From: Paraburkholderia aromaticivorans
GTDB taxonomy: Bacteria; Pseudomonadota; Gammaproteobacteria; Burkholderiales; Burkholderiaceae
NCBI RefSeq assembly: GCF_012689525.1
Contig: NZ_CP051515.1
Location: 3,286,001-3,350,000, forward strand
DNA: 64,000 bases
Direction of reading: 5' to 3'
The position numbers were made by a program, and so were the translations under genes. Under the pieces are notes generated by a model. It ran no database searches, was not told where the DNA came from, and saw only the letters and a program-made list of their open reading frames with translations. The first letter of the stretch is position 1. Each line of letters starts with the position of its first letter. Below are positions 12,621-28,833 of this stretch, piece by piece.

Positions 12621-13394
12621 ATGAACGAAATATTGACGTGCTTCAGCCTGAACGGACGGCGTGCCCTGATCACCGGCTCTGGGCGCGGCATCGGGCTCGC
12701 GCTGGCGCGCGGACTGGCAAGCGCCGGCGCGGCTGTCGTCATCAACGATCGCAATGAGCAGAAGGCGACAGCGGTCGCGGATCAACTGCGTGACGAAGGC
12801 CTCATCGCGGATATCGCGATTTTTGATGTGACTCAACGCGAGGAGGTTTCCTCCGCGATCGACAGGGCCGAGGAGCGCATCGGCGCGATCGACATTCTCG
12901 TGAACAATGCCGGCATTCAGCGGCGGGCGCCGCTCGAAACCTTCAGGGCCGACGACTGGAACGACCTGATGCGCGTCAATCTCGACGGTGTGTTCCATGT
13001 ATCGCAAGCCGTCGCACGGCATATGTTGCCGCGCGGGCGAGGGAAGATCATCAACCTCTGCTCGGTGCAAGGCGAGCTGGCGCGGCCGGGCATCGCGCCC
13101 TATGCAGCGAGCAAGGGCGCCATCCGGATGCTCACCAAAGGCATGTGCGCGGAATGGGCCAGTCGCGGCATTCAGGCCAATGCGCTCGCGCCGGGCTACT
13201 TTGTGACCGATCTGAACCGCGCACTCGTTGACGATCCCGATTTCTCGGACTGGCTTTGCAAGCGTACGCCGGCGGGGCGCTGGGGCCGGGTCGAAGAGTT
13301 GTGCGGCGCAGCGGTGTTTCTGGCGTCGGCGGCTTCGGACTTCGTGAACGGGCAGACGATCTTCGTGGACGGCGGCTTGACCAGCGTGGTCTGA
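12621..13394 (+). CDS. SDR oxidoreductase, gluconate 5-dehydrogenase-like
   Basis: This 257-residue classical SDR has NAD(P) motif TGSGRGIG (about 18-25), NNAGIQRRAP (about 93), catalytic Ser in NLCSVQGELARPG, YAASKGA (Tyr/Lys) and the QTIFVDGGLTSVV C-terminus. NNAGIQRR, HMLPRGRGKIIN and MLTKGMCAEWA are features of the gluconate 5-dehydrogenase (IdnO/Gno) group, which interconverts gluconate and 5-ketogluconate. It is the first gene of a five-gene co-directional block continuing to 18097 and is divergent from LysR. The exact substrate is uncertain. Confidence 0.88.
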   Translation: MNEILTCFSLNGRRALITGSGRGIGLALARGLASAGAAVVINDRNEQKATAVADQLRDEGLIADIAIFDVTQREEVSSAIDRAEERIGAIDILVNNAGIQRRAPLETFRADDWNDLMRVNLDGVFHVSQAVARHMLPRGRGKIINLCSVQGELARPGIAPYAASKGAIRMLTKGMCAEWASRGIQANALAPGYFVTDLNRALVDDPDFSDWLCKRTPAGRWGRVEELCGAAVFLASAASDFVNGQTIFVDGGLTSVV

Positions 13395-13445
13395 GACCGC
13401 CGCGCACGCGGTATCACAAGAAAGCAAACGAAAGGAGACATCGAA

Positions 13446-14636
13446 ATGCGTTCACCCAATACGAACCGGATCCGCTGCGCGCGAGCGCTCGCCGGTCTGA
13501 CGATTGCAGTCATGGCCTGCACATCCTATGGCGCCGACTGGATCGTCTCAGGCAACGACGGGAAGTATCAACGCGTCGAGGGCCGCGATACGTACCCCGA
13601 CAATCCCAAGCCAGACACACTGACGCTGCTGGACGCGAGCCGCTTCCCGCCGCAGGTGAAGGTGCAGGTGGAAGTCGAGAACGGCATCCAGGGGCCACCG
13701 CAGGCCGTCGCGATCACGCCGGACGCAAGCATCGCCCTGGTCGCCGCGCCGACGCGCTACGACTACGCAGCCAAAAAGCTGCTGATGGACTCGTTCGTAC
13801 AGGTGGTCGATCTGCAGGCGTCGCCGCCAGCCGTCGTACGGCTCGATATCGGCAGCCATCCGCAAGGCATCGCCATCGACCGGGCCGGCCACCTCGCGCT
13901 CGTCACCTGCGTCGACGGCAGCGTGGTAGTGCTCGGCATCGAGGGGAATCGCGTGACGCTTCTGGACACGCTGAAGATCACGCAGAAGCGGCTCGCCGGC
14001 GTGAGCTTCACGCACGACGCCCGCCACGCGCTGGTGGCGTTGCGCGATGAACAGGGCGTAGCCGTCCTGAATGTCGCCGACGGCCGCGTGTCCGACAGCG
14101 GCCTGCGCCTTTCGAGCGGCGTGGCGCCTTACACGATCGACGTGTCGAGCGACGGCAAATGGGCCGTCGTGAGCGATGTCGGACTGGCCGGGCTACCGTC
14201 CTATGCGGGCAAGCTGGCGGGCGACGCCGATAGCGTGACGCTCATCGACGTGTCACGTGAGCCCTTTCGCGCGGTACAGCACGTCACGGTGCCGTCGCTG
14301 CCGGAGGGTGTGGCGATCTCGCCCGACGGCAAATGGATCGGCGTACAGGCCATGGACGGCTCTAACCTGACACCGGACAACCCCGGACGCCACGCGCGCG
14401 GCAAGGTGCTCCTCTTCGCGATTCGCGATGGTCAAGCCGTGAAGGTCGGCGAGGCGCCGGGAGGCGAGGCGGCGCAGGGCATCGTCTTCACCGCGGACAG
14501 CAAGTATCTGATCGTGCAGTTCAACGTCGAAAAGCAGCTTGCGTTCTTCGCCGTCAATGGCGGGCATCTGCGCGATACGGGACACAGGATTGCGCTGACG
14601 GGCGGCCCTTCGTCGCTTCGCACGACCCCGCGCTGA
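13446..14636 (+). CDS. Exported YncE-like beta-propeller protein
   Basis: This 396-residue protein has an N-terminal signal peptide (hydrophobic ALAGLTIAVMA, cleavage near SYGA|DW, about residue 31). It then shows repeated propeller blades of the YVTN/lactonase type, with recurring phrases such as GIAIDRAGHLALVTC, GVAISPDGKWIGVQ and GIVFTADSKYLIVQ. It is predicted periplasmic. Propellers of this kind include lactonase-like and YncE proteins, but no catalytic residues can be assigned. It sits inside the sugar-acid-like operon, 51 bases after the SDR gene, with GGAGA before ATG, suggesting a role linked to substrate handling outside the cytoplasm. Confidence 0.85.
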   Translation: MRSPNTNRIRCARALAGLTIAVMACTSYGADWIVSGNDGKYQRVEGRDTYPDNPKPDTLTLLDASRFPPQVKVQVEVENGIQGPPQAVAITPDASIALVAAPTRYDYAAKKLLMDSFVQVVDLQASPPAVVRLDIGSHPQGIAIDRAGHLALVTCVDGSVVVLGIEGNRVTLLDTLKITQKRLAGVSFTHDARHALVALRDEQGVAVLNVADGRVSDSGLRLSSGVAPYTIDVSSDGKWAVVSDVGLAGLPSYAGKLAGDADSVTLIDVSREPFRAVQHVTVPSLPEGVAISPDGKWIGVQAMDGSNLTPDNPGRHARGKVLLFAIRDGQAVKVGEAPGGEAAQGIVFTADSKYLIVQFNVEKQLAFFAVNGGHLRDTGHRIALTGGPSSLRTTPR

Positions 14637-14668
14637 AGATCGAACCATTCGGAAAGAGGACAACGAGC

Positions 14669-15661
14669 ATGTCATCCACTAGCAAAGCACGCAGGAAGGT
14701 CGTCGTTTTTCGCAAGGTTCCAGATGATCTGCTCGAGCGGATCAGGACGCAGCACGACGTCACCGTTGCCGACCCGAGACGCGCCGAAGAACTGCCGCGT
14801 TTTCGTGAGGCACTGCACGACGCGGACGGCCTGATCGGTTCGAGCTTCAGGCTGGGCGAGGAGGAACTGGCCCAGTCGCCGTGTCTGCGGGTGATTTCGA
14901 GCATTTCGGTGGGGGTCGACAACTACGATCTCGCTTACCTGAAGCAGCGCGGCATCACCCTATGCCACACCCCGGGCGTGCTGACCGAGACCACGGCCGA
15001 CACCGTGTTCGCGCTGATCATCGCGGCGTCGCGGCGTCTGGTCGAGCTGTCCAACCATGTGCGCGACGGCCGATGGACACGCAACATCGGCGAAGACCTG
15101 TTCGGCTGGGACGTGCATGGCAAGACGCTCGGCGTGCTGGGCTTCGGCCGCATCGGGCAGGCGGTGGCCCGGCGCGCTGCGTTAGGGTTTGACATGCCGG
15201 TGGTGTTCCACGATCCGTTCGACGTGCAAGTGCCGGCAACGCTCGCCGGGCACGCAGTGCGCGCGTCGTTCGATGAAGTGCTCGAGCGCGCGGACATCGT
15301 CGCGTTGACGCTGCCGCTTGCCGACGAGACGCGCGGCCTGATGGACGCAAAGGCATTCGCATCGATGAAGGCGGGCGCGATCTTCGTGAACGGCTCGCGT
15401 GGCGCGATCGTGCGCGAAGACGCGCTGCTCGCCGCGCTTGATAGCGGCCACTTGCGAGCCGCCGGCCTCGACGTGTTCGCGGTCGAACCGCTGGCGCAGG
15501 ATTCGCCGCTGCGCACGCATCCGAAGGTCACGCCTTTCCCGCACATCGGATCGGCAACGCACGAGACGCGGCGCGCGATGGCCGAGCTCGCAACCGACAA
15601 CCTGCTGCGCGTGCTCGATGGTGAAGCGGCCATCTCCGCGTTCGATCTCTCGAAGATATAA
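14669..15661 (+). CDS. D-2-hydroxyacid dehydrogenase (GhrB/2-ketogluconate reductase type)
   Basis: This 330-residue NAD(P)-dependent enzyme reduces 2-keto acids to D-2-hydroxyacids. Visible motifs are the entry SSISVGVDNYDL (with the substrate-loop VGVD), TPGVLTETTAD, cofactor motif GVLGFGRIGQ, catalytic Arg in FVNGSRGAIV, Glu in LDVFAVEPL and His in PHIGSATHETR. The order and spacing match the glyoxylate/hydroxypyruvate/2-ketogluconate reductase clade. Together with the gluconate-5-dehydrogenase-like SDR it suggests keto-sugar-acid metabolism, but the true substrate is not determined. Confidence 0.9.
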   Translation: MSSTSKARRKVVVFRKVPDDLLERIRTQHDVTVADPRRAEELPRFREALHDADGLIGSSFRLGEEELAQSPCLRVISSISVGVDNYDLAYLKQRGITLCHTPGVLTETTADTVFALIIAASRRLVELSNHVRDGRWTRNIGEDLFGWDVHGKTLGVLGFGRIGQAVARRAALGFDMPVVFHDPFDVQVPATLAGHAVRASFDEVLERADIVALTLPLADETRGLMDAKAFASMKAGAIFVNGSRGAIVREDALLAALDSGHLRAAGLDVFAVEPLAQDSPLRTHPKVTPFPHIGSATHETRRAMAELATDNLLRVLDGEAAISAFDLSKI

Positions 15662-18591: not shown

Positions 18592-19719
18592 GTGCCAGGC
18601 TTACTTCCCGATGTCGACCGCGAGGGACTCCTCGAATATTCAGTCGTTTACACCGACCGATCAATCAATCACATGTCGCAACTCTTTCAAGGAGTCGTAC
18701 GCGATATTTCCGACGCCCTGAAAAAAGTCTACAACGCAAAGTCGGCCGTTGTCGTCCCGGGCAGCGGGACTTTCGGCATGGAAGCCGTCGCCCGGCAGTT
18801 CGCGACGAACAGGAAGTGTTTGGTCATCCGCAATGGCTGGTTCAGTTTTCGCTGGTCGCAGATTTTCGACATGGGCGGCATTCCCTCTGAATCGATCGTG
18901 CTGAAGGCGCGACCGGTCGAACAAGGGAGACAGGCTGCGTATGCACCCCCACCGATCGAAGAAGTGGTCGCTGCGATCAGGGAAAACAAGCCGGATCTGG
19001 TCTTCGCGCCACATGTCGAAACCGCATCCGGGATCATGCTGCCGGACGCCTATTTGCGCGCGGTGGCCGACGCTGTGCACGCCGTCGGCGGCATGTTTGT
19101 ACTGGATTGCATTGCCTCCGGCACGGTCTGGGTCGACATGAAGGCGAGCGGTGTTGACGTCCTGATCAGCGCGCCGCAAAAGGGATGGAGCGCGTCACCG
19201 TGCTGCGGGCTGGTCATGCTTAGTCCGCTTGCCCGCGAAAGAATCGACGAAACTACTAGCACCAGTTTCGCTTGCGATCTCCGCAAATGGTTGCAGATCA
19301 TGGAAGCCTACGAGAACGGCGGGTTCGCGTACCACGCAACGATGCCCACGGACAGTCTCGCGACGCTGCGCGACGTCATGAAGGAAACCGAGGCATACGG
19401 CTTCGACAAAGTGAGAGCGGAGCAGCTTGAACTCGGCGCGCGCGTTCGCTCACTCCTGGGTGCCAGGGGTTTCAAAAGCGTGGCGGCCGAAGGTTTTCAG
19501 GCTCCGGGCGTCGTAGTCAGCTACACGGACGATGACGGCATACGATCCGGCAAGAAATTCGCCGATGCCGGCTTGCAGATCGCGCCTGGCGTTCCCCTTC
19601 AATGCGACGAGCCTGAAGACTTCAAGACCTTCCGCGTCGGATTATTTGGCCTGGACAAACTGCATGACGTCGAAGGCGCGGTCGCCAGGCTTGCCAAGGC
19701 GTTGGACAGTATTCTTTAA
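18592..19719 (+). CDS. Class V aminotransferase (alanine/serine-glyoxylate type)
   Basis: This 375-residue PLP enzyme starts at GTG 18592 with GGAGA upstream. It shows VVPGSGTFGMEAVARQF (phosphate-binding segment), HVETASGIMLPD, VDCIA-like LDCIASGTVWVDM (PLP-ring Asp) and SAPQKGWSASPCCGL with the Schiff-base Lys. The fold is that of serine-pyruvate/alanine-glyoxylate aminotransferases. No clear pathway neighbours: the integrase scar lies upstream and a DUF262 remnant downstream, so it may be a monocistronic gene at the edge of an accessory segment. Confidence 0.88.
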   Translation: MPGLLPDVDREGLLEYSVVYTDRSINHMSQLFQGVVRDISDALKKVYNAKSAVVVPGSGTFGMEAVARQFATNRKCLVIRNGWFSFRWSQIFDMGGIPSESIVLKARPVEQGRQAAYAPPPIEEVVAAIRENKPDLVFAPHVETASGIMLPDAYLRAVADAVHAVGGMFVLDCIASGTVWVDMKASGVDVLISAPQKGWSASPCCGLVMLSPLARERIDETTSTSFACDLRKWLQIMEAYENGGFAYHATMPTDSLATLRDVMKETEAYGFDKVRAEQLELGARVRSLLGARGFKSVAAEGFQAPGVVVSYTDDDGIRSGKKFADAGLQIAPGVPLQCDEPEDFKTFRVGLFGLDKLHDVEGAVARLAKALDSIL

Positions 19720-19849
19720 AGCGGTTGGGGATCGGCCTAAGGCCGCGCCCGGCGCTGTGGAGCGGGCTGATGCTGTGGCGACTGTCGCCGAGGTCAGTCG
19801 GAAAAGAGCGCCGAGGCGTAGGCCGGCGCGGTTTGCCGATTCGGCGTAA

Positions 19850-20336
19850 GGTCTTTTCACAACGGTTGAGCACGAAATCGACGTGCGCCTCAGCAAACTC
19901 CGGGCGACTAACCGCGCGCTCGATCTCGCAGTAGTTGGTCCAGATGTTCTGTTGCGAGGTGTCGCTGGAAAACGACGGCTGAAACATACCTGATCTCAGA
20001 TTCTCCAACTGAGCTCTCAGATGTTTATTTTGAAGCGCTGGCAGCCGGCGCTTGATCAGTGCATGCACGATCAGCAGCAGCGTGATGGTGCGCTGCTGTC
20101 CATCTACGATATTGTTTTTGTTCTCTTTATGATCGTGATGGAGCACCACCGTCCCCAACCAATAGGCTGATTTGGTGATGCTGCGCGATGTCGCAGAATA
20201 ACTGGGTCACGTGCAGCCGAGTCCACTTGTAAGGACGCTGGTACTGCGGAATGGCCAGTGTGCTATCGGCCAGTAAGTCGTGAACCTTCAGTACCTTTTT
20301 TGGAAGAGACTTCACTCCCTGGGTCGTGACGCTCAT
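19850..20336 (-). pseudogene. DUF262 (GmrSD-like) nuclease-family gene, frameshifted and truncated
   Basis: Starting at ATG 20336, the protein reads ...HDLLADSTLAIPQYQRPYKW, a DUF262 hallmark (IPxYQRxYxW). At about 20165 the frame is lost (missing base in ISxYWLG), and the next frame continues WLGTVVLHHDHKENKNNIVDGQQRTITLLL with the second hallmark DGQQR. It then ends abruptly after VDFVLNRCEKT near 19855, where foreign sequence joins. Intact relatives are several hundred residues longer and include type IV restriction and other anti-phage proteins. Non-functional as read, unless the frameshift is a sequencing error. Confidence 0.8.
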
Positions 20337-20444: not shown

Positions 20445-21218
20445 TCAGCGGTACCGGGCAACCAGAGCACGGTAACGTACATCATCCCTCAAGCCGCTTA
20501 ATTCCGGGGCGCTGTCAAGAAAAGCAAACCCTCGATAACCTGACTTGAACGCATCACCAAGCCGACTGATGGCGGCATCATAGTCGCCGTCGTGTGCTGC
20601 GACTAACGCGAGCTGTGCCTGCGCGGCCCCGCCTCCAGTCGCGACTTTGTCCATGCCCACAGAAGGCGAAACGGTTGACTGACCAACGCGATAACGCGGA
20701 GCACCGGATATAACTTCGGGAGGTTCGGCACTCACGCTTTTCGGTTCGCGCCCTTTTACTTCCACGTCTGCCGACTGCTTACTCAACTCCGAAGCTTGCG
20801 TCGCGGAGGCGGACCCATTTGCCGAAGTCTCTGCAGCGTTAGCCAGCAGCGCCGATGCGTGAACGTCCTCGCCGACGCGACGATAGTAGATGGGTCCAAC
20901 AAGAGGTATCTTCAGATACATCCGGTCAGGGCCATCGAAGTAAAACGTAAGTCCGACGCCGTACGACAAATCGATCGTCACAGCATCCGTCTTTCCCGCA
21001 ATACCTTTGATCGGAAGGCTTGCCCCCGTATCGGGACTGACGATCTGCGTGCTGGACACTACGATATCAAGGCCAACCGGCAACTGCACGCTATCGAAAG
21101 CAACGCGTTCAGCGTGCCAGTGGCCGATGATCGACGGCCCGACGGATTTCGAACATCCGCAGACAATTGCTAACGCCGCGAACAGCGCGGCGCCTCGCCG
21201 ATAACCGGAGATGTTCAC
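20445..21218 (-). CDS. TPR-containing lipoprotein, last gene of caspase/tubulin cluster
   Basis: This 257-residue lipoprotein has a signal peptide with lipobox VCGC (Cys22). The middle part (about 25-115) is a small beta-rich region (IGHWHAER ... YGVGLTFYFDG ... IYYRRVGE). A Ser/Ala/Glu-rich linker follows. The C-terminal helical repeat ends LSGLRDDVRYRALVARYR, which closely parallels the end of the neighbouring zinc-ribbon protein (LDAIRNDPRFTALIKKYR). Its ATG overlaps that gene's TGA by four bases (ATGA), so the two are translationally coupled. Predicted outer-membrane or periplasm-facing. Function unknown. Confidence 0.82.
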   Translation of the reverse strand: MNISGYRRGAALFAALAIVCGCSKSVGPSIIGHWHAERVAFDSVQLPVGLDIVVSSTQIVSPDTGASLPIKGIAGKTDAVTIDLSYGVGLTFYFDGPDRMYLKIPLVGPIYYRRVGEDVHASALLANAAETSANGSASATQASELSKQSADVEVKGREPKSVSAEPPEVISGAPRYRVGQSTVSPSVGMDKVATGGGAAQAQLALVAAHDGDYDAAISRLGDAFKSGYRGFAFLDSAPELSGLRDDVRYRALVARYR

Positions 21219-21958
21219 GTCGTCGTACGATACTTTTTGATCAACGCCGTGAAGCGTGGGTCGTTCCGGATAGCGTCGAGATCGGGGTCCTTCTGCATCT
21301 CGTCGAAGTACGAGAATCCGTTCAGAAAACTGGCTTCCAGTTCCTTGAACGCGTCGTCTGTACGGCCTTGCTTCAGCCTCAGCACTGCCATGTTGTAGTA
21401 GACCAGCGACTGCTTCGGATCGCGAGCGGCAGCATCGCTCAGTTCTTTCTCGGCATCATCAAGCTTCCCCTGAGACATCTGGGCAATGGCGACCTTGACC
21501 ATCTCCTTGGCAGCCACCTGGTTGCTTGCCGACTCGGCGCCCGATGCGTCTCCGTTCGAGAGCTTTGCATCACTATCTTTGCGTTGGGCAGTGATATCCG
21601 CATCAGACGGGGAGATTCCAACGGATGCCGACTGTGGCGGCGCGCTCGCAGGTGCAGCCGCGGCCACGACGGCCGAAGCCGTAGCAGCCTGAGCTGACAC
21701 AACTGCATCGGGACTTGCGGAGTGCGACTTCTTGTAATACAAGCCACCGCTGACAGCGCCGATAATCACAACGACTGCCGCGCCAACACCCGCGGCGACC
21801 AGCTTCTTATTGGGCCCCGTTTTCGTTCCTGCAACCTCCGACACCAGCAAAGTCGAGCATTCGGGGCACTTCAAGTCTTCACCGGGCAAACGAACAAACA
21901 CTTCACGCGCATTCGCTCGGTCGCAGTCACCGACGGTGGGACATTTATAGTTTGGCAT
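21215..21958 (-). CDS. Zinc-ribbon, single-TM, TPR protein
   Basis: This 247-residue protein has four N-terminal cysteines (Cys6, Cys12, Cys31, Cys34; the latter in LKCPECSTLL) forming a probable zinc ribbon. One transmembrane helix (about 52-75, LVAAGVGAAVVVIIGAVSGG) and an Ala/Ser linker follow. The C-terminal TPR region (about 150-247) includes GKLDDAEKELSDAAARDPKQ and VYYNMAVLRLKQGRTDDAFK. With the ribbon in the cytoplasm, the TPR part would face the periplasm. It lies 32 bases after the tubulin-like gene and overlaps the next gene by ATGA. It could physically link the cytoplasmic filament protein to periplasmic partners; this is inference. Confidence 0.84.
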   Translation of the reverse strand: MPNYKCPTVGDCDRANAREVFVRLPGEDLKCPECSTLLVSEVAGTKTGPNKKLVAAGVGAAVVVIIGAVSGGLYYKKSHSASPDAVVSAQAATASAVVAAAAPASAPPQSASVGISPSDADITAQRKDSDAKLSNGDASGAESASNQVAAKEMVKVAIAQMSQGKLDDAEKELSDAAARDPKQSLVYYNMAVLRLKQGRTDDAFKELEASFLNGFSYFDEMQKDPDLDAIRNDPRFTALIKKYRTTT

Positions 21959-21990
21959 GGTTACACCTACGATTCAGTTAATGCAGACGG

Positions 21991-24900
21991 TTACTCAGCG
22001 ACTGCAGGCAGGCCAATGATTTCCCGCACCGGCTTCTGCATCGCGCTAATTGCCAGATATTCGGCGTCCTGGTCGTCCTCGCCCGCTTCGTTGAAGCGCG
22101 CAGTCGCGAAGTCGATGTACTCTTCGAAAAGCTTCTGCTTGTCATCCTTGTGTTTCAACTCAGCGTCGACCTTTCGGCTTACTTCGCGCTCGATCATGCC
22201 CTGCAACTCAGCAGAGTGATCCTCGTCGATAACCGACTGCCAGGTAGAACCACGCAGGACCTTGGACGCGGGAAGTCCATTGGCCTTATAGATGAAAGCC
22301 CACTCCTGCTCGCCTGTTGTCCTGTTCTGACGCTCCTTGATGAGGTTCATCAGACGGGCCACCAGCAGGACGGGTTTGCGCTTCGCTTGCGCGCTGACTT
22401 CGGCCGTCGACCGCGCATAAAGCGGAGGAAGTTTCTTTCCGTCACCCTGGCTGTGCAGAAGATGGGACTCGTTGAAGTCCGCGAGCAAGCCGTCGTAGTG
22501 CCGCTTCATCATAGCCAACGATTCGATGAACCGTACCGGCATCAACGAGGCGATTTTGAGTATCACAATCTCGTTCGACAGCTTTCCTGGCGCCACAACC
22601 GTATCGGACGCCGGATCTTTCTGTTCCTCGAACAGCTTCGTCAACGTCGCGTGGAAGTCTTTCTGGCTTTCGCACTCCGGCAGGAACACGGCAACCGTGT
22701 TCGATGTGCCGCGCGTTCCACCCGCGTTGTTGGCGACCGACCGATCGACCTCCGTCTTGTTGTACTGGATCATCGTCCCCGACTTCTCGTACAACTCGGA
22801 CACGAACGCCTTCAAGGCATTCGGGTTGGCATCGTATTGCTTCTGGAGTCGCTCAACGATATTGACCTGCAACACAGGCGTCAGACTCTTGGAAATTTCT
22901 GCGTGCGCCATTTCCACGATAGTTGCAGATGTCTGCGAAATCGTTGAAATGATCGCACCAAGAGAAATTCCGCGGACCAGCCTGTCGAACGAATCCACCT
23001 CCGTTCCTGCAAGATCGATCACGGACTGACGGACCTTCTGCGTACGTGTGACCTGACTCTGTTCGTCAACGATCACAGCCTTCATGATGCTGGCGATCGC
23101 GCCACGGTCAAAAATCCGCTGCTGATAGGCGGAATCGGCTCCCGCCAACCTTGCCGCCTGCTCGTCGTGCACCTTTTCAGTTGCCGCCGCGAGGGTCTGA
23201 TGCATGCCGTCGATGTGACCGCGCAGCGTCGTCAGTTCGTCCTTGATGAAGGGAATCAGGCTCACAGCGAACTTCTGACCTTCGTAGAGCGTACGGAGCG
23301 TGTAAAGGTCCTGGTGTCTTGCAGCAATGTCGGCGAACAACGCACCGCGTTTGTCCGTCAAGTGTTGACCGAAGAACCCCACCTTGTTGAACTGCGTCAG
23401 CAGTTCCTCAACGTTTTGCTGGACGACTGCCAGCGTTGCAGGCGCTTTCGTGATTTCTTCAGCGAGCACCGAGAGACGCTCATCGAGCAACGCAATGATC
23501 GCGTCAGTGAACTGGCGCAATTGCATCAGCGAATGCGTGCCAATTTTCCACCGTGCGAAAAGGTCTTTCTCGACCTGACGCGCGATGTGGCGGGCCATCT
23601 CAAGGCGAGCGTTACCCTTGATCTCATAGAACTTGCGCACGCCGCCGAGCTTTCGGTAGGTCTCGTCGAATACCTTGGCCAGTCGGGTATTCAATGCAGC
23701 TGCCCAGGTCGTCTGTTCAAGCGTCGGATCGTTGCGCACTTCGGGAGCCACGACGCTCACCACCTGCTTCCAGAATTCCTTCGCGGGTTTCCATCCGGCG
23801 TTCTTCGCATCGTCTTCGAGAATGCCAACCTCAAGCGTCAGGTGCTGGTCGCTGAGTAGCATGCTCTGCAAGGCATCGGGTTTCCTCGCCTCACTATTCC
23901 AGTCCTTCTGAACCGGTTCGTTTGCGTAACCCTCACCCTGACGGAAGTTATTGAACATCAACTGACGAGTTGCCTGTTCGGCGAAACCGTACGCCAGATA
24001 CTCCTTGATCTCCTGCTCCGGAACAACGATCCGCTCGACGCCGAACGACAGAAACAGCTTGGCACGCGCCTTTCCGTCTTCTTCACTTTCGAAGTTCTTG
24101 ATGTCGTTCTCGCCCTTTTCGGCACGCCCAAGACCTTCCCACTCCTTGTTCAGGGTTTTCTGGAAAATGAACTCGCCAACGATACGGGGAAGCTCGCTAT
24201 CGACGTCGAACTGGATGTTGTTCTGATTGAGGTTGCTGACCAGATAGCAACCATTGAAATAGACGTCATGCGCCATAGGCGACCCGTCCAGCAGGTTCGC
24301 CGGATGATATTTGCCTACAGCCATTGCATTCAGCTCGGCCAGGGCCGCGTATCCGTTCGCGTAATACGGCGAGACGCCAGCCACGTCACGCACACGCCGC
24401 GAATCCTTCTCGGGAAGCAGTGCGTACACGAGGATCCGATGCTGCTCGGGATTGGGATACTTGTTGCGGAGCAGAGCGATTGCGTCCACCACCGACCCAC
24501 TTCCCGTCCCGCCAGCGAGGCCGCAGACTACGTGGATGACTGCACCAGCACGTCCAGGACCTTGTTGCAACACGCGCATCCGGTCTTCAACGGCCTTCAC
24601 GAATTGCGGCGCATTCTGTGCAAAGACAACACGACCGAGCTTGCGTCGTTGCGCAGCTCCAGCCGTAGTAGCCTGCAACACGTCGAAAATGCCACGCGGC
24701 TCGATCCAGTCTCGCAGTCCCGGAAATGACGCAGGGTCGTCAAGGGCAGCACGAACGCTGCTCGCCGTGTTGATGATGTATTGGCTGCGGGCGAGGTCGA
24801 TCTCCTTGCCCAAGACCTTCCACTCGTCGTGCTTGTCGATTTCGTCGCTCGACGTATCGACGTACAGGTACTCAAACTGCGCCGCCGACGGGCTGTTCCC

Positions 24901-24996
24901 CTGCGCGTCCTTATTTCGCTCGATCGTCTTACGCAGATGGCGGATGATTTTGCCGCCCGATCCGCCCAGGCCGATAATCAGATGGTTATGTTCCAT
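21991..24996 (-). CDS. Large tubulin/FtsZ-like GTPase (Tubulin_2-type)
   Basis: This 1001-residue cytoplasmic protein has a GTPase domain at its N-terminus. The T1 loop is IGLGGSGGKI (8-17), there is a VDTSSDEID acidic loop (46-54), and the tubulin/FtsZ signature is CGLAGGTGSGSVVDA (158-172), followed by LVYALLPEK and LVSNLNQNN strands. After about 300 residues it continues as a long, largely helical C-terminal extension with no recognised enzyme motif. The length is about 2.5 times FtsZ, so it is not the cell-division protein; it resembles the large tubulin-like family called Tubulin_2. The catalytic T7 loop (NxDxxD) was not located. It is the fourth gene of the minus-strand cluster. Confidence 0.86.
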   Translation of the reverse strand: MEHNHLIIGLGGSGGKIIRHLRKTIERNKDAQGNSPSAAQFEYLYVDTSSDEIDKHDEWKVLGKEIDLARSQYIINTASSVRAALDDPASFPGLRDWIEPRGIFDVLQATTAGAAQRRKLGRVVFAQNAPQFVKAVEDRMRVLQQGPGRAGAVIHVVCGLAGGTGSGSVVDAIALLRNKYPNPEQHRILVYALLPEKDSRRVRDVAGVSPYYANGYAALAELNAMAVGKYHPANLLDGSPMAHDVYFNGCYLVSNLNQNNIQFDVDSELPRIVGEFIFQKTLNKEWEGLGRAEKGENDIKNFESEEDGKARAKLFLSFGVERIVVPEQEIKEYLAYGFAEQATRQLMFNNFRQGEGYANEPVQKDWNSEARKPDALQSMLLSDQHLTLEVGILEDDAKNAGWKPAKEFWKQVVSVVAPEVRNDPTLEQTTWAAALNTRLAKVFDETYRKLGGVRKFYEIKGNARLEMARHIARQVEKDLFARWKIGTHSLMQLRQFTDAIIALLDERLSVLAEEITKAPATLAVVQQNVEELLTQFNKVGFFGQHLTDKRGALFADIAARHQDLYTLRTLYEGQKFAVSLIPFIKDELTTLRGHIDGMHQTLAAATEKVHDEQAARLAGADSAYQQRIFDRGAIASIMKAVIVDEQSQVTRTQKVRQSVIDLAGTEVDSFDRLVRGISLGAIISTISQTSATIVEMAHAEISKSLTPVLQVNIVERLQKQYDANPNALKAFVSELYEKSGTMIQYNKTEVDRSVANNAGGTRGTSNTVAVFLPECESQKDFHATLTKLFEEQKDPASDTVVAPGKLSNEIVILKIASLMPVRFIESLAMMKRHYDGLLADFNESHLLHSQGDGKKLPPLYARSTAEVSAQAKRKPVLLVARLMNLIKERQNRTTGEQEWAFIYKANGLPASKVLRGSTWQSVIDEDHSAELQGMIEREVSRKVDAELKHKDDKQKLFEEYIDFATARFNEAGEDDQDAEYLAISAMQKPVREIIGLPAVAE

Positions 24997-25060
24997 GTCT
25001 TTCGTATCTCAGTATCTCAGTGCAATTCGCGGAGGCATATTCCTCGAGCAAATCCGGGTG

Positions 25061-26047
25061 TTACTGGTGCGCGAGGTTGATTTTCAGAAACAGCGCCGAA
25101 TCAGTCTTGGTGGTGTTCTTCACAACATATGAAGCAACCTGCTGGCCGGGTGCCGGAGACTGGTCATCGCTAAAGACGATTCCCTTCGATGCATAGGCGG
25201 ACGAATCTGCCTGCGCGACTTTCGGAGCACAGCCGGCAGGCGAGTCGGGAGCGAAATTGATACCCTTCGAGGCAAAATCCGACGACACACTGGCCAACTG
25301 CATTGGAGCTGCATCCGAAGCAACGGGTCCGGCTGATGCTGTAAGCGACGTATCCGTAGTAGCCGGTGAGTCCGACGTGGAAGCAGCCGCTACGACCGGA
25401 GCAGCGGGACAAGATCCGGAATCTGCCGTTTTCTGCATTGGGCTCGTCACCAGGTCGGGTGCCACTGTTCGCACGCGACGCGTGATGTCGTCGTGCGCGC
25501 GCTCAGGCGACAGATACACCATCAGCTTTTCCATGCCTGGCTTGTCGTCAAACTGGAACGCGCCTTTCGCAGGGAAGAAGACCACCCCCATGGCATCCAC
25601 GAAGTTATCCTGGGAAGGTTGCGGATAAATTTGCGTAATCGTGCCGTCCGGCGCTTCGTTAAGGATATAGACGTAGGACGGACGGTTCACCTTCACGCCG
25701 AGTTGAAACTTTTCGCCGCTGTGAAAAACGCGGCGGGTCAGGACATCATGCGTCGTCCCATCCTGATCTTTGAGCCTGACGAAGTAGCTGGCGCCCAGTT
25801 GCGAAGACGGGCGCTTCTTCTTTTGCGCCACCTTCACGACCGCCGCTGCCGGGGTCGTCGCTGCGGTCGAGGAGGCGTTAGCCGAGGCCACTGCGGTGTC
25901 AAGCGTGCTATCACCAGCCTTCGCTGTGCTAACCGCGACGACTGAGTCGTTCGCTGAGAAGAAAAGAGACTTGGCGGTGTAGGCTTCCTCGGCAAACGCA
26001 TGCGTGGCCATCGCAGCGACGGTCAGTGCGATCAACGGATATCGCAT
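25061..26047 (-). CDS. Exported DUF4384 protein with repeated SKGI motif
   Basis: This 328-residue protein starts at ATG 26047 with GGAGAG upstream; a much longer in-frame ORF reaches 26863 but overlaps the caspase gene and lacks coding character. The signal peptide is cleaved near AFA|EEA (residue 19/20). The DUF4384 domain spans about 85-190 (YFVRLKDQDG ... GEKFQLGVKVNRPSYVYILN ... GTITQIYPQP). DUF4384 often accompanies C14 caspase domains. Three copies of a motif occur: AYTAKSLFFSAND (22-34), DFASKGINFAPDS (257-269) and AYASKGIVFSDDQ (284-296). A fourth copy is in the adjacent caspase. 43 bases separate the genes. Confidence 0.85.
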   Translation of the reverse strand: MRYPLIALTVAAMATHAFAEEAYTAKSLFFSANDSVVAVSTAKAGDSTLDTAVASANASSTAATTPAAAVVKVAQKKKRPSSQLGASYFVRLKDQDGTTHDVLTRRVFHSGEKFQLGVKVNRPSYVYILNEAPDGTITQIYPQPSQDNFVDAMGVVFFPAKGAFQFDDKPGMEKLMVYLSPERAHDDITRRVRTVAPDLVTSPMQKTADSGSCPAAPVVAAASTSDSPATTDTSLTASAGPVASDAAPMQLASVSSDFASKGINFAPDSPAGCAPKVAQADSSAYASKGIVFSDDQSPAPGQQVASYVVKNTTKTDSALFLKINLAHQ

Positions 26048-26090
26048 GTTTTCTCTCCTGTATCTTGAATTTTGAAACCGGTGTCGCCTA

Positions 26091-27416
26091 TCAGTTGACG
26101 GCGTTCTGGTCATCCGGGATTGTTGAGAACTGGCGAGGATTCTGGCTCTCCGTGCCCTTCGATGCCTCGATTGCCTTGCGAGACGTAAAGTCCTGCGCTT
26201 GACGGAAGGCGGGCCCCAACTTGCCGCCATCTGTTTTGAGGTAGGCAAACAGTGACTGGGTGAAGAAAGAACCGTTAAGAGGCTGCCCGCCGACCGGATT
26301 GACGAACGTGTGACCCGCTGACGGCCCCCATGAGCGTTGGTTTGGGCTCGTTGCAGTAATAATGGTGTAGCCGTTACGATTTCTGTCGATAACAGTTCGT
26401 ACCGGTTTGCTTTGGCTGCCACCGGCTTGCTCGCCGGAGTCACCAGCAAATTGAATTCCTTTGGAAGTGAAAGCCGAGGTTGTCCACGATGCGAGTGAAA
26501 TGCCCGCTTTCTCAGCCGTACCCCCGTTGGTCTTGACGATGTACTCCGTGCTCTCGTCTTTGACATCGTCGAGCATGTCGCCGCTGTAGCAAGTGTCAAT
26601 AACGACACGCGTTGTATGGCTCGGTCGACGCGCGACGTTCTGTACCAGCGTATCGGGCACTGAATGGCTTTGCACGTAGAGTTTGATTTCCGTCGTGTCC
26701 CCCATCGCCATCGTCTTTTGATTGACCGAGTCGTATGCAATGATGGACATCTTGCGCTGGTCTGCACCTCCCGGAGTCGGCACGGGCTCGGTCCCGTGAC
26801 TGGAGATGTAGATGAAAACGTCATCGTTCGGCCCCACTGTGCGGTCGAGCGTGTTGAGCGCATTCTCTATGTTCGCCTTTGTCGCATGCTCGTCTAGCAG
26901 TGTCGTGACGTTATAGCCCGCGCGTTTAAGGTAATCCTGAACGACGATGGCATCGTCTCGCCCCTGAATCTCCGGGATGTAGGGATCGGCAAAACGATTC
27001 AGGCCAACGACGATCGCTCGCTTGACGGGCGCTTGCGAACGCACTCCACCATCGCGCGCAAATGCTTCGAGCGCCTTTCCGGCCGCAGTTTCCCAACGCT
27101 TCTGCTTGATGTTCTGCGGGTAAATAGGCGATGTCGACTTCATGCCAACGATCGACTGCACGATCGTGAATGCCGTGTCGACGTCGTCCTCGTTCTGGTA
27201 GCTTCCGACAAGCTGCATTCTGCCGGTGCTGTCCCGCACAACCGAGGCCTGGTTGAGCCCATGCGCGTGGAACTTGTCTTTGATGCGGTCAACCAGACTC
27301 TGCGGAACGCTATACGAGTGATAGGTGTTCTGATAGCCTGGCAAACTGCTTGCCGCGCATGCGGATAGCAAAGCAGCCCCTACCAGGATCAGAGCGCGCT
27401 GGACGTACATTTTCAT
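26091..27416 (-). CDS. Caspase-like (C14) lipoprotein with BON-like domain
   Basis: This 441-residue protein begins with a lipoprotein signal and lipobox LSAC (Cys20, followed by Ala, so probably not retained in the inner membrane). Residues about 37-100 look like a BON domain (LVDRIKDKFHAHGLNQASVV ... LVGSYQNEDDVDTA). The caspase fold starts at KRAIVVGLNRF (132-142), with catalytic His207 in YISSHG and Cys276 in VIDTCYSGD. Between Cys276 and the next core strand (YTIITATSPNQ, 350-360) lies a linker with AFTSKGIQFAGDS (315-327). Its predicted periplasmic side location is unusual for a caspase homologue. Cleaves after Lys or Arg by family analogy. Confidence 0.9.
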   Translation of the reverse strand: MKMYVQRALILVGAALLSACAASSLPGYQNTYHSYSVPQSLVDRIKDKFHAHGLNQASVVRDSTGRMQLVGSYQNEDDVDTAFTIVQSIVGMKSTSPIYPQNIKQKRWETAAGKALEAFARDGGVRSQAPVKRAIVVGLNRFADPYIPEIQGRDDAIVVQDYLKRAGYNVTTLLDEHATKANIENALNTLDRTVGPNDDVFIYISSHGTEPVPTPGGADQRKMSIIAYDSVNQKTMAMGDTTEIKLYVQSHSVPDTLVQNVARRPSHTTRVVIDTCYSGDMLDDVKDESTEYIVKTNGGTAEKAGISLASWTTSAFTSKGIQFAGDSGEQAGGSQSKPVRTVIDRNRNGYTIITATSPNQRSWGPSAGHTFVNPVGGQPLNGSFFTQSLFAYLKTDGGKLGPAFRQAQDFTSRKAIEASKGTESQNPRQFSTIPDDQNAVN

Positions 27417-27532
27417 CGGTTAGGGACGATTGGTTGACCTGCAGGGTGCTGTGGTCGGAATGAAGACAGAGTTGGCACTGGCGGCCCGTACACTCTTGCC
27501 CGGTGTCCAAAGGACCTCCGGGCTCCACGCCG

Positions 27533-28273
27533 TTATTGTGAGACCTGGAATTTTTCGGATACCACCGAGGCCGGCTTGTTATCGGCGGCAACACTGAATT
27601 CGACGCGATAGAGACTACCGGGCTTCGCATCGTGAGGAATGGGGATGCGGACAGTGTCCACCACCTCACCGGGCTCGAAGGTGTGGTCTTCGGCGGTAGG
27701 GTGGCCAGGGAACAGAACGAGGGTTTCCTTGCCGTCGTCACCAATCACGTACAGCTTGCGGTCGATCGCGACCGACCGCTCTGCGCCGTCCGGCGTCATC
27801 AATGCAAAAGTGCTGTTGACGACAGCTTGTCCGTCTGCCTTCACCGGCCCGTCAATGGTGACCGAGTTGGCACGCACAACGACGCCCTGATTCGCTTTGT
27901 ACTTGAGCTCTTTCTTGACCTTCTCGAACGACTTGGTGTGCTGAATACTGGATTCAGGAACCCAGGAAGGATTCTTCTTGTAGCACGTATCAATCGCCGT
28001 GTAGTACGCAGTGGCGAATCCGGCCATGCCGCCGACCGCGGCGCCGATGACAGCACCCTTCGCTGCGTCGTTCTTCTTGTTCGATACCAGCATCGCTGCG
28101 AAGCCAGTCAATGCTCCGATGCCTGCTCCCTTTGCCGTCGCCACGATCTGTTCTTTTCGAACGCATGAGTTGAGGTCGTCGGTCGCCGATTCCTGAGCAT
28201 TCGCCCCGATAGACAGGATCAGCAGGCTCGTTGATACGGCAGCAACAATTGCCTTTTGCATGTTTTTGGTCAT
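27533..28273 (-). CDS. Exported glycine-zipper protein, first gene of cluster
   Basis: This 246-residue protein has a signal peptide cleaved near GANA|QES (about residue 26). A glycine-zipper hairpin follows (about 45-95: AKGAGIGALTGFAAML ... KGAVIGAAVGGMAGFATAYY), able to insert in or oligomerise at a membrane. The C-terminal half (about 115-246) is beta-rich and resembles an Ig-like domain (VVVRANSVTIDGPVKADG ... GEVVDTVRIPIPHDAKPGSLYRVEF). A second in-frame ATG four codons later is possible. It is separated from the caspase gene by 116 bases and is probably the first gene of the transcript. Function unknown; a pore- or envelope-associated role is only inference. Confidence 0.8.
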   Translation of the reverse strand: MTKNMQKAIVAAVSTSLLILSIGANAQESATDDLNSCVRKEQIVATAKGAGIGALTGFAAMLVSNKKNDAAKGAVIGAAVGGMAGFATAYYTAIDTCYKKNPSWVPESSIQHTKSFEKVKKELKYKANQGVVVRANSVTIDGPVKADGQAVVNSTFALMTPDGAERSVAIDRKLYVIGDDGKETLVLFPGHPTAEDHTFEPGEVVDTVRIPIPHDAKPGSLYRVEFSVAADNKPASVVSEKFQVSQ

Positions 28274-28683
28274 CTATCTGATTGTTCTAGTGTTTTATTG
28301 CAGCAACGTCACGACGCTTCTCTATTTACCGCGCCATCGCTACGCCTGATTTTTTAACTGGCCAGCGCTTCCCTCTCAAGTAGCGCATCCAATCACTTTC
28401 TATTTTCGGCAAAGGGCGCGGGAACTTTAGCACTTCAGTCACTTTTGTAGGCGTCGGCTTAAATTAATATTTTTTGGAGTTGCCTCGCCAACTACTTGAC
28501 AGATGCGAATTCACATTCAGAAATAGCGCGCAAACGTTTGGCGCAGTTTGGGTGCGATACAGCGCATCAATTCGTGCGCCATGGCGCGCTTGCATCCGCC
28601 TGGATAGTAGCGCTCTGTGCTAACGCGAGCGGCAAGGTCGTCGCCCACAAAATTGCGGACAGGTTCGTCCGTCCGCACCTCTT
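28274..28683. promoter_or_regulatory. AT-rich spacer upstream of caspase/tubulin cluster
   Basis: 410 bases without a convincing gene. It contains the most AT-rich sequence of the neighbourhood (around 28455-28480, TTAAATTAATATTTTTT), which is expected to include the promoter of the minus-strand cluster. I could not fix hexamers. Confidence 0.4.
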
Positions 28684-28833
28684 CTAACTTCCCCGCCGCT
28701 CATCTGGCATATGCCGCCGCATAAAAACATCAATACCATCCACACGCGACGAAGCAAACGCCCTAACCACCACCACAACAACGATACCCAAAACCACCAC
28801 CACAGCCGGAATCTCAAACAAGGTCATATCCAC
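28684..28833 (-). CDS. Predicted 49-residue membrane peptide
   Basis: GTG 28833 is preceded at optimal distance by GGAGG, giving a 49-residue protein: a short acidic start (DMTLFEIPAV), one very hydrophobic helix rich in Val (about 9-23), then a basic tail (FASSRVDGIDVFMRRHMPDE). An ATG two codons later (28827) is an alternative start. The gene is convergent with nothing and lies downstream of the APC permease, 166 bases from its stop. Codons are T/G-rich. A real small membrane protein seems likely because of the RBS and positive-inside charge pattern, but no family is recognised. Confidence 0.5.
   Translation of the reverse strand: MDMTLFEIPAVVVVLGIVVVVVVRAFASSRVDGIDVFMRRHMPDERRGS

Follow-up and report, generated by a model that had tools for sequence, protein, structure and literature searches.

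A conserved six-gene block with a caspase-fold lipoprotein that may cut itself and a DUF4384 partner at a shared lysine motif

What might a caspase-fold protease in a bacterial cell envelope cut, and could a tubulin-like GTPase encoded beside it have a part in this? These questions are raised by a block of six genes, named A to F in their order of transcription, all on the minus strand between positions 20445 and 28273 of a 64,000-nucleotide stretch of the Paraburkholderia aromaticivorans contig NZ_CP051515.1 (the window, meaning the whole stretch that we analysed). The genes encode an exported glycine-zipper protein, a caspase-fold lipoprotein, an exported DUF4384 protein, a tubulin-like GTPase, a zinc-ribbon protein with one transmembrane segment and a TPR domain, and a second lipoprotein with a TPR-like end. 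The membrane segment, signal peptides and lipoboxes were assigned by visual inspection of the sequences. A preliminary description of this DNA had listed these genes as one possible system. The main clue of the present analysis, a short lysine motif shared by B and C, is absent from that description. On balance, we hold it to be somewhat probable that caspase B cuts itself and protein C after the invariant lysine of this motif, within a conserved six-gene block.

The six genes form one unit. Separate searches with B, C and D recovered orthologs of all three in exactly the same six of 98 relatives; beyond these, the B search gave only weak partial matches in five other genomes and at a further site in G044, none better than E 2.6e-6. 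More widely, D was recovered from 8 of 398 family genomes, own genome included, and from 3 of 399 genomes sampled across the order, namely the window's own, one with a D of 31% identity and one whose gene is truncated. A profile search added 5 of 299 genomes of another family of the order. Twelve genomes from six genera carry a close full-length D (G000, G010, G014, G020, G042, G044, G527, G588, G668, G709, G775 and G1223); two further loci from a contig scan lie on the same contigs as the G527 and G588 loci and were not counted again. Genes A to F are all present and in one order in 11 of the 12, representing five genera. In the twelfth, G527, of the sixth genus, the contig begins inside B, leaving A out of view, and F is only a fragment. 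F of G668 is without its TPR end, and at G775:C98:6873-9871 D is split into two overlapping frames, which may reflect either decay of the gene or an error in sequencing. Outside the block, few open reading frames (ORFs) are alike between the window and the 12 loci, L018 and L019 sharing one 214-residue ORF at 89%; presence is patchy, and the flanks are mostly different between loci.

A broken DUF262 gene beside the block could point to chance neighbours in an accessory region that do not act together. Chance clustering is ruled out, however, since B, C and D co-occur exactly and gene order is conserved in 11 genomes of five genera, and the motif shared by B and C adds to the case; we give this explanation practically no credence. 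The tabulation of gene neighbourhoods across relatives that had been proposed as a check has thus left the linkage unrefuted, the six genes staying together, and the idea of one system is strongly supported. Only Tubulin_2 genes at a much greater distance lack the other block genes. Those of G1129, G113 and G988 have no neighbour matching the other five profiles, the G1173 gene has only a weak match to E (0.0063) and the G981 gene no match. The truncated G350 gene is on its own.

B matches Pfam Peptidase_C14 (E 1e-13, 51.9 bits against a cut-off of 21.4). To read conservation, the B protein of the window was compared with the best 120 of its 175 homologs, and C of the window with the best 120 of 256. 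The His207/Cys276 dyad proposed earlier for B is present and unchanged in every one of the 121 rows, and the lipobox cysteine is kept in all of them as well. An AlphaFold2 model of B built from 90 sequences has a predicted local distance difference test score (pLDDT) of 83, and Foldseek matched this model to MALT1 (E 7.4e-11), GSU0716, metacaspases and caspases. A profile search of solved structures returned GSU0716 and metacaspases (E 1e-5 to 5e-3), and a single-sequence search of solved structures gave nothing useful. Against NCBIfam NF047832 (EACC1-associated caspase), B scores 27.6 bits, below the cut-off of 140. In the model, strand 268-273 is followed by Cys276, by a loop at residues 318-346 with pLDDT below 50 and by a core strand at residues 350-354. 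Caspases cut the linker between these core strands on maturation. The motif at residues 316-323 would lie in this self-processing linker, at the edge of loop 318-346, which separates the strand ahead of Cys276 from the core strand that follows. Conservation averages 3.3 bits over the motif and 1.4 bits over the variable loop after it.

The motif reads [FY]x[SA]KGIx[FY] in its strict form; a narrow pattern requires G after the K, and a relaxed pattern was also used. B has one copy and C has three, one of them a variant (Table 1); the relaxed pattern, too, detects none in the window's A, D, E or F. Lys319 of B is K in 121/121 rows, and the position after it is occupied by G in 93 rows, by A in 27 and by S in one. 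Lys26, Lys261 and Lys288 of C are each K in 119/119 covering rows, two rows being gapped at each site. The narrow pattern is found twice in 95 of the best 120 of 256 C rows, once in 15 and not at all in 10; it is found once in 78 of the best 120 of 175 B rows and is missing from 42. Most misses have A, S or D after the lysine or differ in adjacent residues; two of the C rows are truncated. Among orthologs of C in the fetched loci, that of L028 has no narrow form and reads KAI twice, and that of L023 keeps LGAKALFY and FAGKDLVF. Cys213 and Cys273 of C, which flank the second copy of the motif, are present in 119/119 covering rows.

At the level of DNA, the strict motif is confined to the block, with 33 matches in ~90 Mb (12 genomes), 33/33 inside B or C. 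Three of these are in the window's own genome (10.84 Mb; backward control 0), and 30 are in the 11 other block genomes, 30/30 in B or C by position (backward control 1). Nine of these 11 genomes have three matches each, G527, whose B reads KGIHLV, has two, and G668, whose C reads KAI, has one. In our search for further substrates, the strict pattern gave none in the own genome; the relaxed pattern, counted regardless of frame, gave 8 matches there, 4 in the block and 4 outside it, against 6 backward controls genome-wide. We dropped the idea that the residue after the lysine covaries between B and C, as G668 has KGI in B and KAI in C.

Which residue B would cut after is suggested by comparison with plant metacaspase 4 (AtMC4). 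There, according to the sections of PMC7206013 that were available, linker Lys225 lies between the catalytic residues in a pocket to which p20 contributes Ser84 and Asp137 and p10 contributes Ser350 and Asp352, and cleavage starts at this lysine. B has S205 and D274, unchanged across 90 rows, two positions ahead of His207 and Cys276, the same spacing as that of Ser84 and Asp137 from His86 and Cys139 of AtMC4 (same sections of PMC7206013). Orthocaspases cut after Arg or Lys, and MaOC1 cuts itself at Arg219 (PMC7475262, in excerpt). S205, D274 and the motif lysine suggest that B may cleave after a basic residue.

Several points weigh against cleavage at the motif. Cleavage by B is itself a prediction from sequence, and the resemblance to the AtMC4 pocket covers its p20 pair, Ser84 and Asp137. 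The stretch at residues 296-309 before the B motif is also conserved (3.2 bits), so that the motif is no island on its N-terminal side, and the residues after the lysine (I, F, D) are conserved too, more than many proteases need. No covering row has Arg in place of the motif Lys; because an Arg-or-Lys protease should tolerate some Arg, this argues either for strict Lys specificity or for another role of the lysine. Gingipain K is a known example of a strictly lysine-specific protease. In the caspase of the divergent locus L023, a motif-like FASKDLVA is found at the C-terminus, following a fused DUF4384 domain, instead of in the linker. A simple promoter scan was uninformative, as no minus-strand promoter was found upstream of A either; no minus-strand terminator-like site was found within the four gaps of the block.

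The position of the motif in L023, the conservation on either side of the lysine and the lack of any change from Lys to Arg in covering rows would all suit the main rival explanation, in which the motif is a docking tag by which B and C bind one periplasmic partner (such as the TPR end of E or of F, or protein A), or in which the copies in C block B as a pseudosubstrate. The B copy of the main family is nevertheless placed in the self-processing linker, beside a variable, low-confidence stretch, and the lysine, unchanged in all covering rows, matches both the acidic pocket and the preference of orthocaspases for a basic P1 residue (PMC7475262, in excerpt). The absence of arginine is notable for the cleavage and docking readings alike, and we consider docking unlikely.

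Returning to cleavage, B would be made as a precursor with linker Lys319 in its own active site, by analogy with Lys225 of metacaspase 4. A signal would free B, which would cut itself at Lys319 and then cut C at Lys26, Lys261 and Lys288. The cuts in C would trim the N-terminus and set free two pieces: a short segment from the middle, which a Cys213-Cys273 disulfide might hold, and a conserved C-terminal stretch of 40 residues. The signal would come from the cytoplasm, with the assembly or GTP state of D acting on the zinc ribbon and membrane segment of E and, through these, on the periplasmic TPR ends of E and F. The outcome would be an envelope change, either remodelling or cell damage, with A as a possible executor. 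In its fullest form, the proposal would describe the first bacterial protease cascade across the envelope run by a tubulin relative, in which GTP-driven assembly of D in the cytoplasm acts through E on a strictly Lys-specific periplasmic B, B is set off by cleavage of its own linker and then cuts C at its three motif copies, and the released 40-residue peptide acts on the envelope. This extended version is tentative, and we judge it rather unlikely to hold in full.

D matches Pfam Tubulin_2 (E 3.4e-54, 184.9 bits, cut-off 27), and its GTP-binding loop reads AGGTGSG at residues 161-167, the GGGTG(S/T)G of the family with A for the first G; G162, G163, T164, G165 and G167 are invariant in 47 rows. 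The preliminary description had assigned a tubulin-like GTPase with a GGTGSGS box. The predicted structure of D (m6166492e99f1) shows a tubulin fold with a long helical middle part, as in the family. In this model, residues ~345-760 form an extended and largely helical insert that separates the GTPase part from a CetZ-like C-terminal part; for this reason the C-terminal tubulin domain may have gone unrecognised in FtsZl1 proteins. The zinc-ribbon cysteines C6, C12, C31 and C34 of E and the lipobox Cys22 of F are kept in 10/10 aligned rows. These cysteines, together with the lipobox cysteine of B, fit the topology first suggested for the block, with D in the cytoplasm, E as a zinc-ribbon protein predicted to cross the inner membrane, and B and F as lipoproteins.

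A zinc-ribbon/transmembrane gene also adjoins D in three divergent loci. In L023, where D is 31% identical, the order is C-D-E-F-B, an OmpA-domain protein is encoded upstream and A is missing. The gene at the position of E in L055 has the zinc ribbon and transmembrane segment only. In L056 (11742-13577, plus strand), zinc ribbon, transmembrane segment, PBP-like part and OmpA domain are found in one protein beside a divergent tubulin-like gene. E therefore looks like a membrane adaptor of this tubulin-like branch with an exchangeable periplasmic part, and its adjacency to D supports putative signalling by D across the inner membrane. Two points speak against such a link: more distant Tubulin_2 loci (L039, L040 and L041) have no E-like gene by profile, and nothing ties the GTP state of D to B directly. 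We infer control of B by D through E, and the best support for the earlier notion of a cytoplasmic filament controlling an envelope protease is the zinc-ribbon/transmembrane gene next to D in divergent loci. L023 also carries a second caspase gene (12784-14784, plus strand; 666 aa, with C14 at the C-terminal end), which lies divergently beside the block.

The coordinates of the block and of its main features are collected in Table 1.

Table 1. Genes and sequence features of the six-gene block, in window positions (by eye, read directly from the sequence).
Feature	Position	Strand	Basis or remark
Gene A, exported glycine-zipper protein, 246 aa	27533..28273	-	sub-cutoff glycine-zipper matches (Pfam)
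Gene B, caspase-fold Peptidase_C14 lipoprotein, 441 aa	26091..27416	-	Pfam, AlphaFold2 model, Foldseek
His207 codon, catalytic dyad of B	26796..26798	-	121/121 rows
Cys276 codon, catalytic dyad of B	26589..26591	-	121/121 rows
Motif of B, FTSKGIQF, residues 316-323	26448..26471	-	strict pattern; candidate self-processing site after Lys319
Gene C, exported DUF4384 protein, 328 aa	25061..26047	-	Pfam
Copy 1 of C, variant YTAKSLFF, residues 23-30, just after the signal peptide (by eye)	25958..25981	-	relaxed pattern
Copy 2 of C, FASKGINF, residues 258-265	25253..25276	-	strict pattern
Copy 3 of C, YASKGIVF, residues 285-292	25172..25195	-	strict pattern
Gene D, tubulin-like GTPase, Tubulin_2/FtsZl1 family, 1001 aa, long mostly helical middle part	21991..24996	-	
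GTP-binding loop of D, GGTGSG, residues 162-167	24496..24513	-	sequence
Gene E, zinc-ribbon, single transmembrane segment (by eye) and TPR protein, 247 aa	21215..21958	-	Pfam, NCBIfam
Gene F, lipoprotein with TPR-like end, 257 aa, GTG start	20445..21218	-	sequence, NCBIfam

All six are intact ORFs, separated by 116 (A/B), 43 (B/C), 64 (C/D) and 32 (D/E) bases, with E and F overlapping by 4 bases. Genes, places and gaps agree with the preliminary description; the overlap had been given there as ATGA and is in fact GTGA, because F starts with GTG. The protein identities given there are likewise matched by Pfam or NCBIfam for the caspase, DUF4384, tubulin-like and TPR domains, with the glycine zipper of A matched below cut-off only. 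C matches Pfam DUF4384 at E 8.5e-15; E has TPR by Pfam and matches NCBIfam TPR_END_plus at E 2.9e-16. F has no Pfam match and scores below cut-off with TPR_END_plus in NCBIfam (20.3 bits vs 32), and A has no Pfam match above cut-off, with Cys37 and Cys97 kept in 10/10 aligned rows.

Directly downstream of F, a frame-broken DUF262/GmrSD_N stretch (19622-20336, minus strand) reaches 31 bits with Pfam GmrSD_N, just under the cut-off of 33.2, so that the DUF262 relic noted earlier is real in this form. The putative integrase relic noted at the other end (28430-28700, minus strand) amounts to a translated fragment only. The DUF262 remnant sits where 8/11 other close loci carry a seventh gene of ~100 residues just after F, encoding a small membrane protein that resembles a TM2-domain protein. 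This gene is clear in L018, L019, L020, L021, L026, L027 and L029 and weak in L022; it was not found in the window, L025, L028 or L054.

The patchy distribution and the mostly different flanks raise the question of whether the block serves anti-phage defence or cell death, with D sensing phage or stress and releasing the caspase. Caspases and tubulin homologs both occur among predicted conflict systems (PMC7159879, in the portions available). PADLOC, however, gave only a weak match to its generic caspase model among the six proteins (B, 23.7 bits), which speaks against a known defence system. In a flank survey of 81 of 85 flanking ORFs against Pfam and PADLOC (E 1e-8 or better), 22 PADLOC models matched one ORF each (16 PDC-S02, one PDC-S62, mad3, mad8, DpdE, PD_DExK and C3a194), with no dominant defence family; 101 Pfam families were matched, and the 25 listed include transporters, LysR, PAS/GGDEF and metabolic families. 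Phage and viral collections gave no match at their sensitivity, and we rejected phage or prophage cargo as an origin: the phage set gave no match, and none of the 75 viral-contig stretches that fit a peptide pattern encodes a relative. A plasmid search gave two matches, one at 73% to a 1.09-Mb Paraburkholderia replicon, which by length and position is contig G014:C3, and a weak partial one at 27% in Meiothermus. Export signals are present on B and on its partner C, whereas in most known systems the effectors are cytoplasmic. The defence role suggested in the preliminary description has thus gained no positive support, and we regard it as improbable.

A quieter function would be ordinary envelope upkeep, in which the block forms a scaffold and the caspase matures C once, with neither signalling nor death. 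Makarova and Koonin 2010 (PMC2875224, in the sections available) predicted a membrane-remodelling role for FtsZl1 systems, and the small membrane-protein gene after F and the OmpA-domain proteins of two divergent loci would fit such a role. Sporadic presence, in 6/98 relatives and 8/398 family genomes, is less readily explained by upkeep, which we see as possible and somewhat doubtful.

D itself belongs to a known family. The FtsZl1 family and its predicted membrane-remodelling operons were described by Makarova and Koonin (PMC2875224), whose Findings section, in the text available, does not mention caspases. With these operons the block shares a Tubulin_2 protein of ~1000 residues with a GTP loop and a long helical middle part, the membrane proteins around it and, in the divergent relatives L023 and L056, OmpA-domain partners. 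It differs in that the vWA protein, the Ser/Thr kinase and the P-loop GTPase are absent from the six proteins by Pfam, as is an OmpA-family protein; in their place are a caspase, a DUF4384 protein, a zinc-ribbon/transmembrane/TPR protein and a lipoprotein. Kaur et al. 2020 (PMC7159879) report tubulin with TRAFAC GTPases, HSP70 and vWA, and caspases with MoxR/vWA or EACC1. Those conflict systems resemble the block in having tubulin homologs in some cases, caspase domains in others and links to membrane proteins, whereas the passages available hold no lipoprotein caspase with an exported DUF4384 partner, and DUF4384 occurs 0 times in the main text.

On the enzyme side, B has in common with orthocaspases and metacaspases (MaOC1; AtMC4, PMC7206013, as far as its excerpts go) the caspase fold, the His/Cys dyad, an acid near the catalytic Cys for a basic P1 and the linker lysine; it differs as a predicted periplasmic lipoprotein with its own N-terminal part, in a six-gene block and with a dedicated candidate substrate that bears the same motif. 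Craspase (TPR-CHAT with Csx30), judged from partial accounts, is likewise a caspase-like protease with a dedicated protein substrate, Csx30, whereas B matches Peptidase_C14 and no CHAT or TPR model by Pfam, the six genes include no RNA-guided partner and B is predicted to act in the envelope. DUF4384 is known to occur with caspase domains in orthocaspases (PMC6426788 and PMC7475262, both in excerpt); there, as in L023, it is fused to the caspase, whereas here it forms the separate exported protein C with three motif copies. In the open-licence literature, as far as its accessible text extends, we found no description of this block or its motif. The enzyme-substrate proposal for B and C within an FtsZl1-type block is what is new here, the family itself being already known.

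To our knowledge, the natural substrates of bacterial caspase homologs are rarely known. For this block, sequence alone proposes an enzyme, its self-processing site, a substrate and the exact bonds that would be cut. If D controls B, the FtsZl1 family, whose role was left open at its description in 2010, would gain a concrete output, and a cytoskeletal GTPase would be signalling to a protease across a membrane. Such a connection, if confirmed, would link a cytoskeletal protein of some soil bacteria with a cascade of proteolysis in their envelope.

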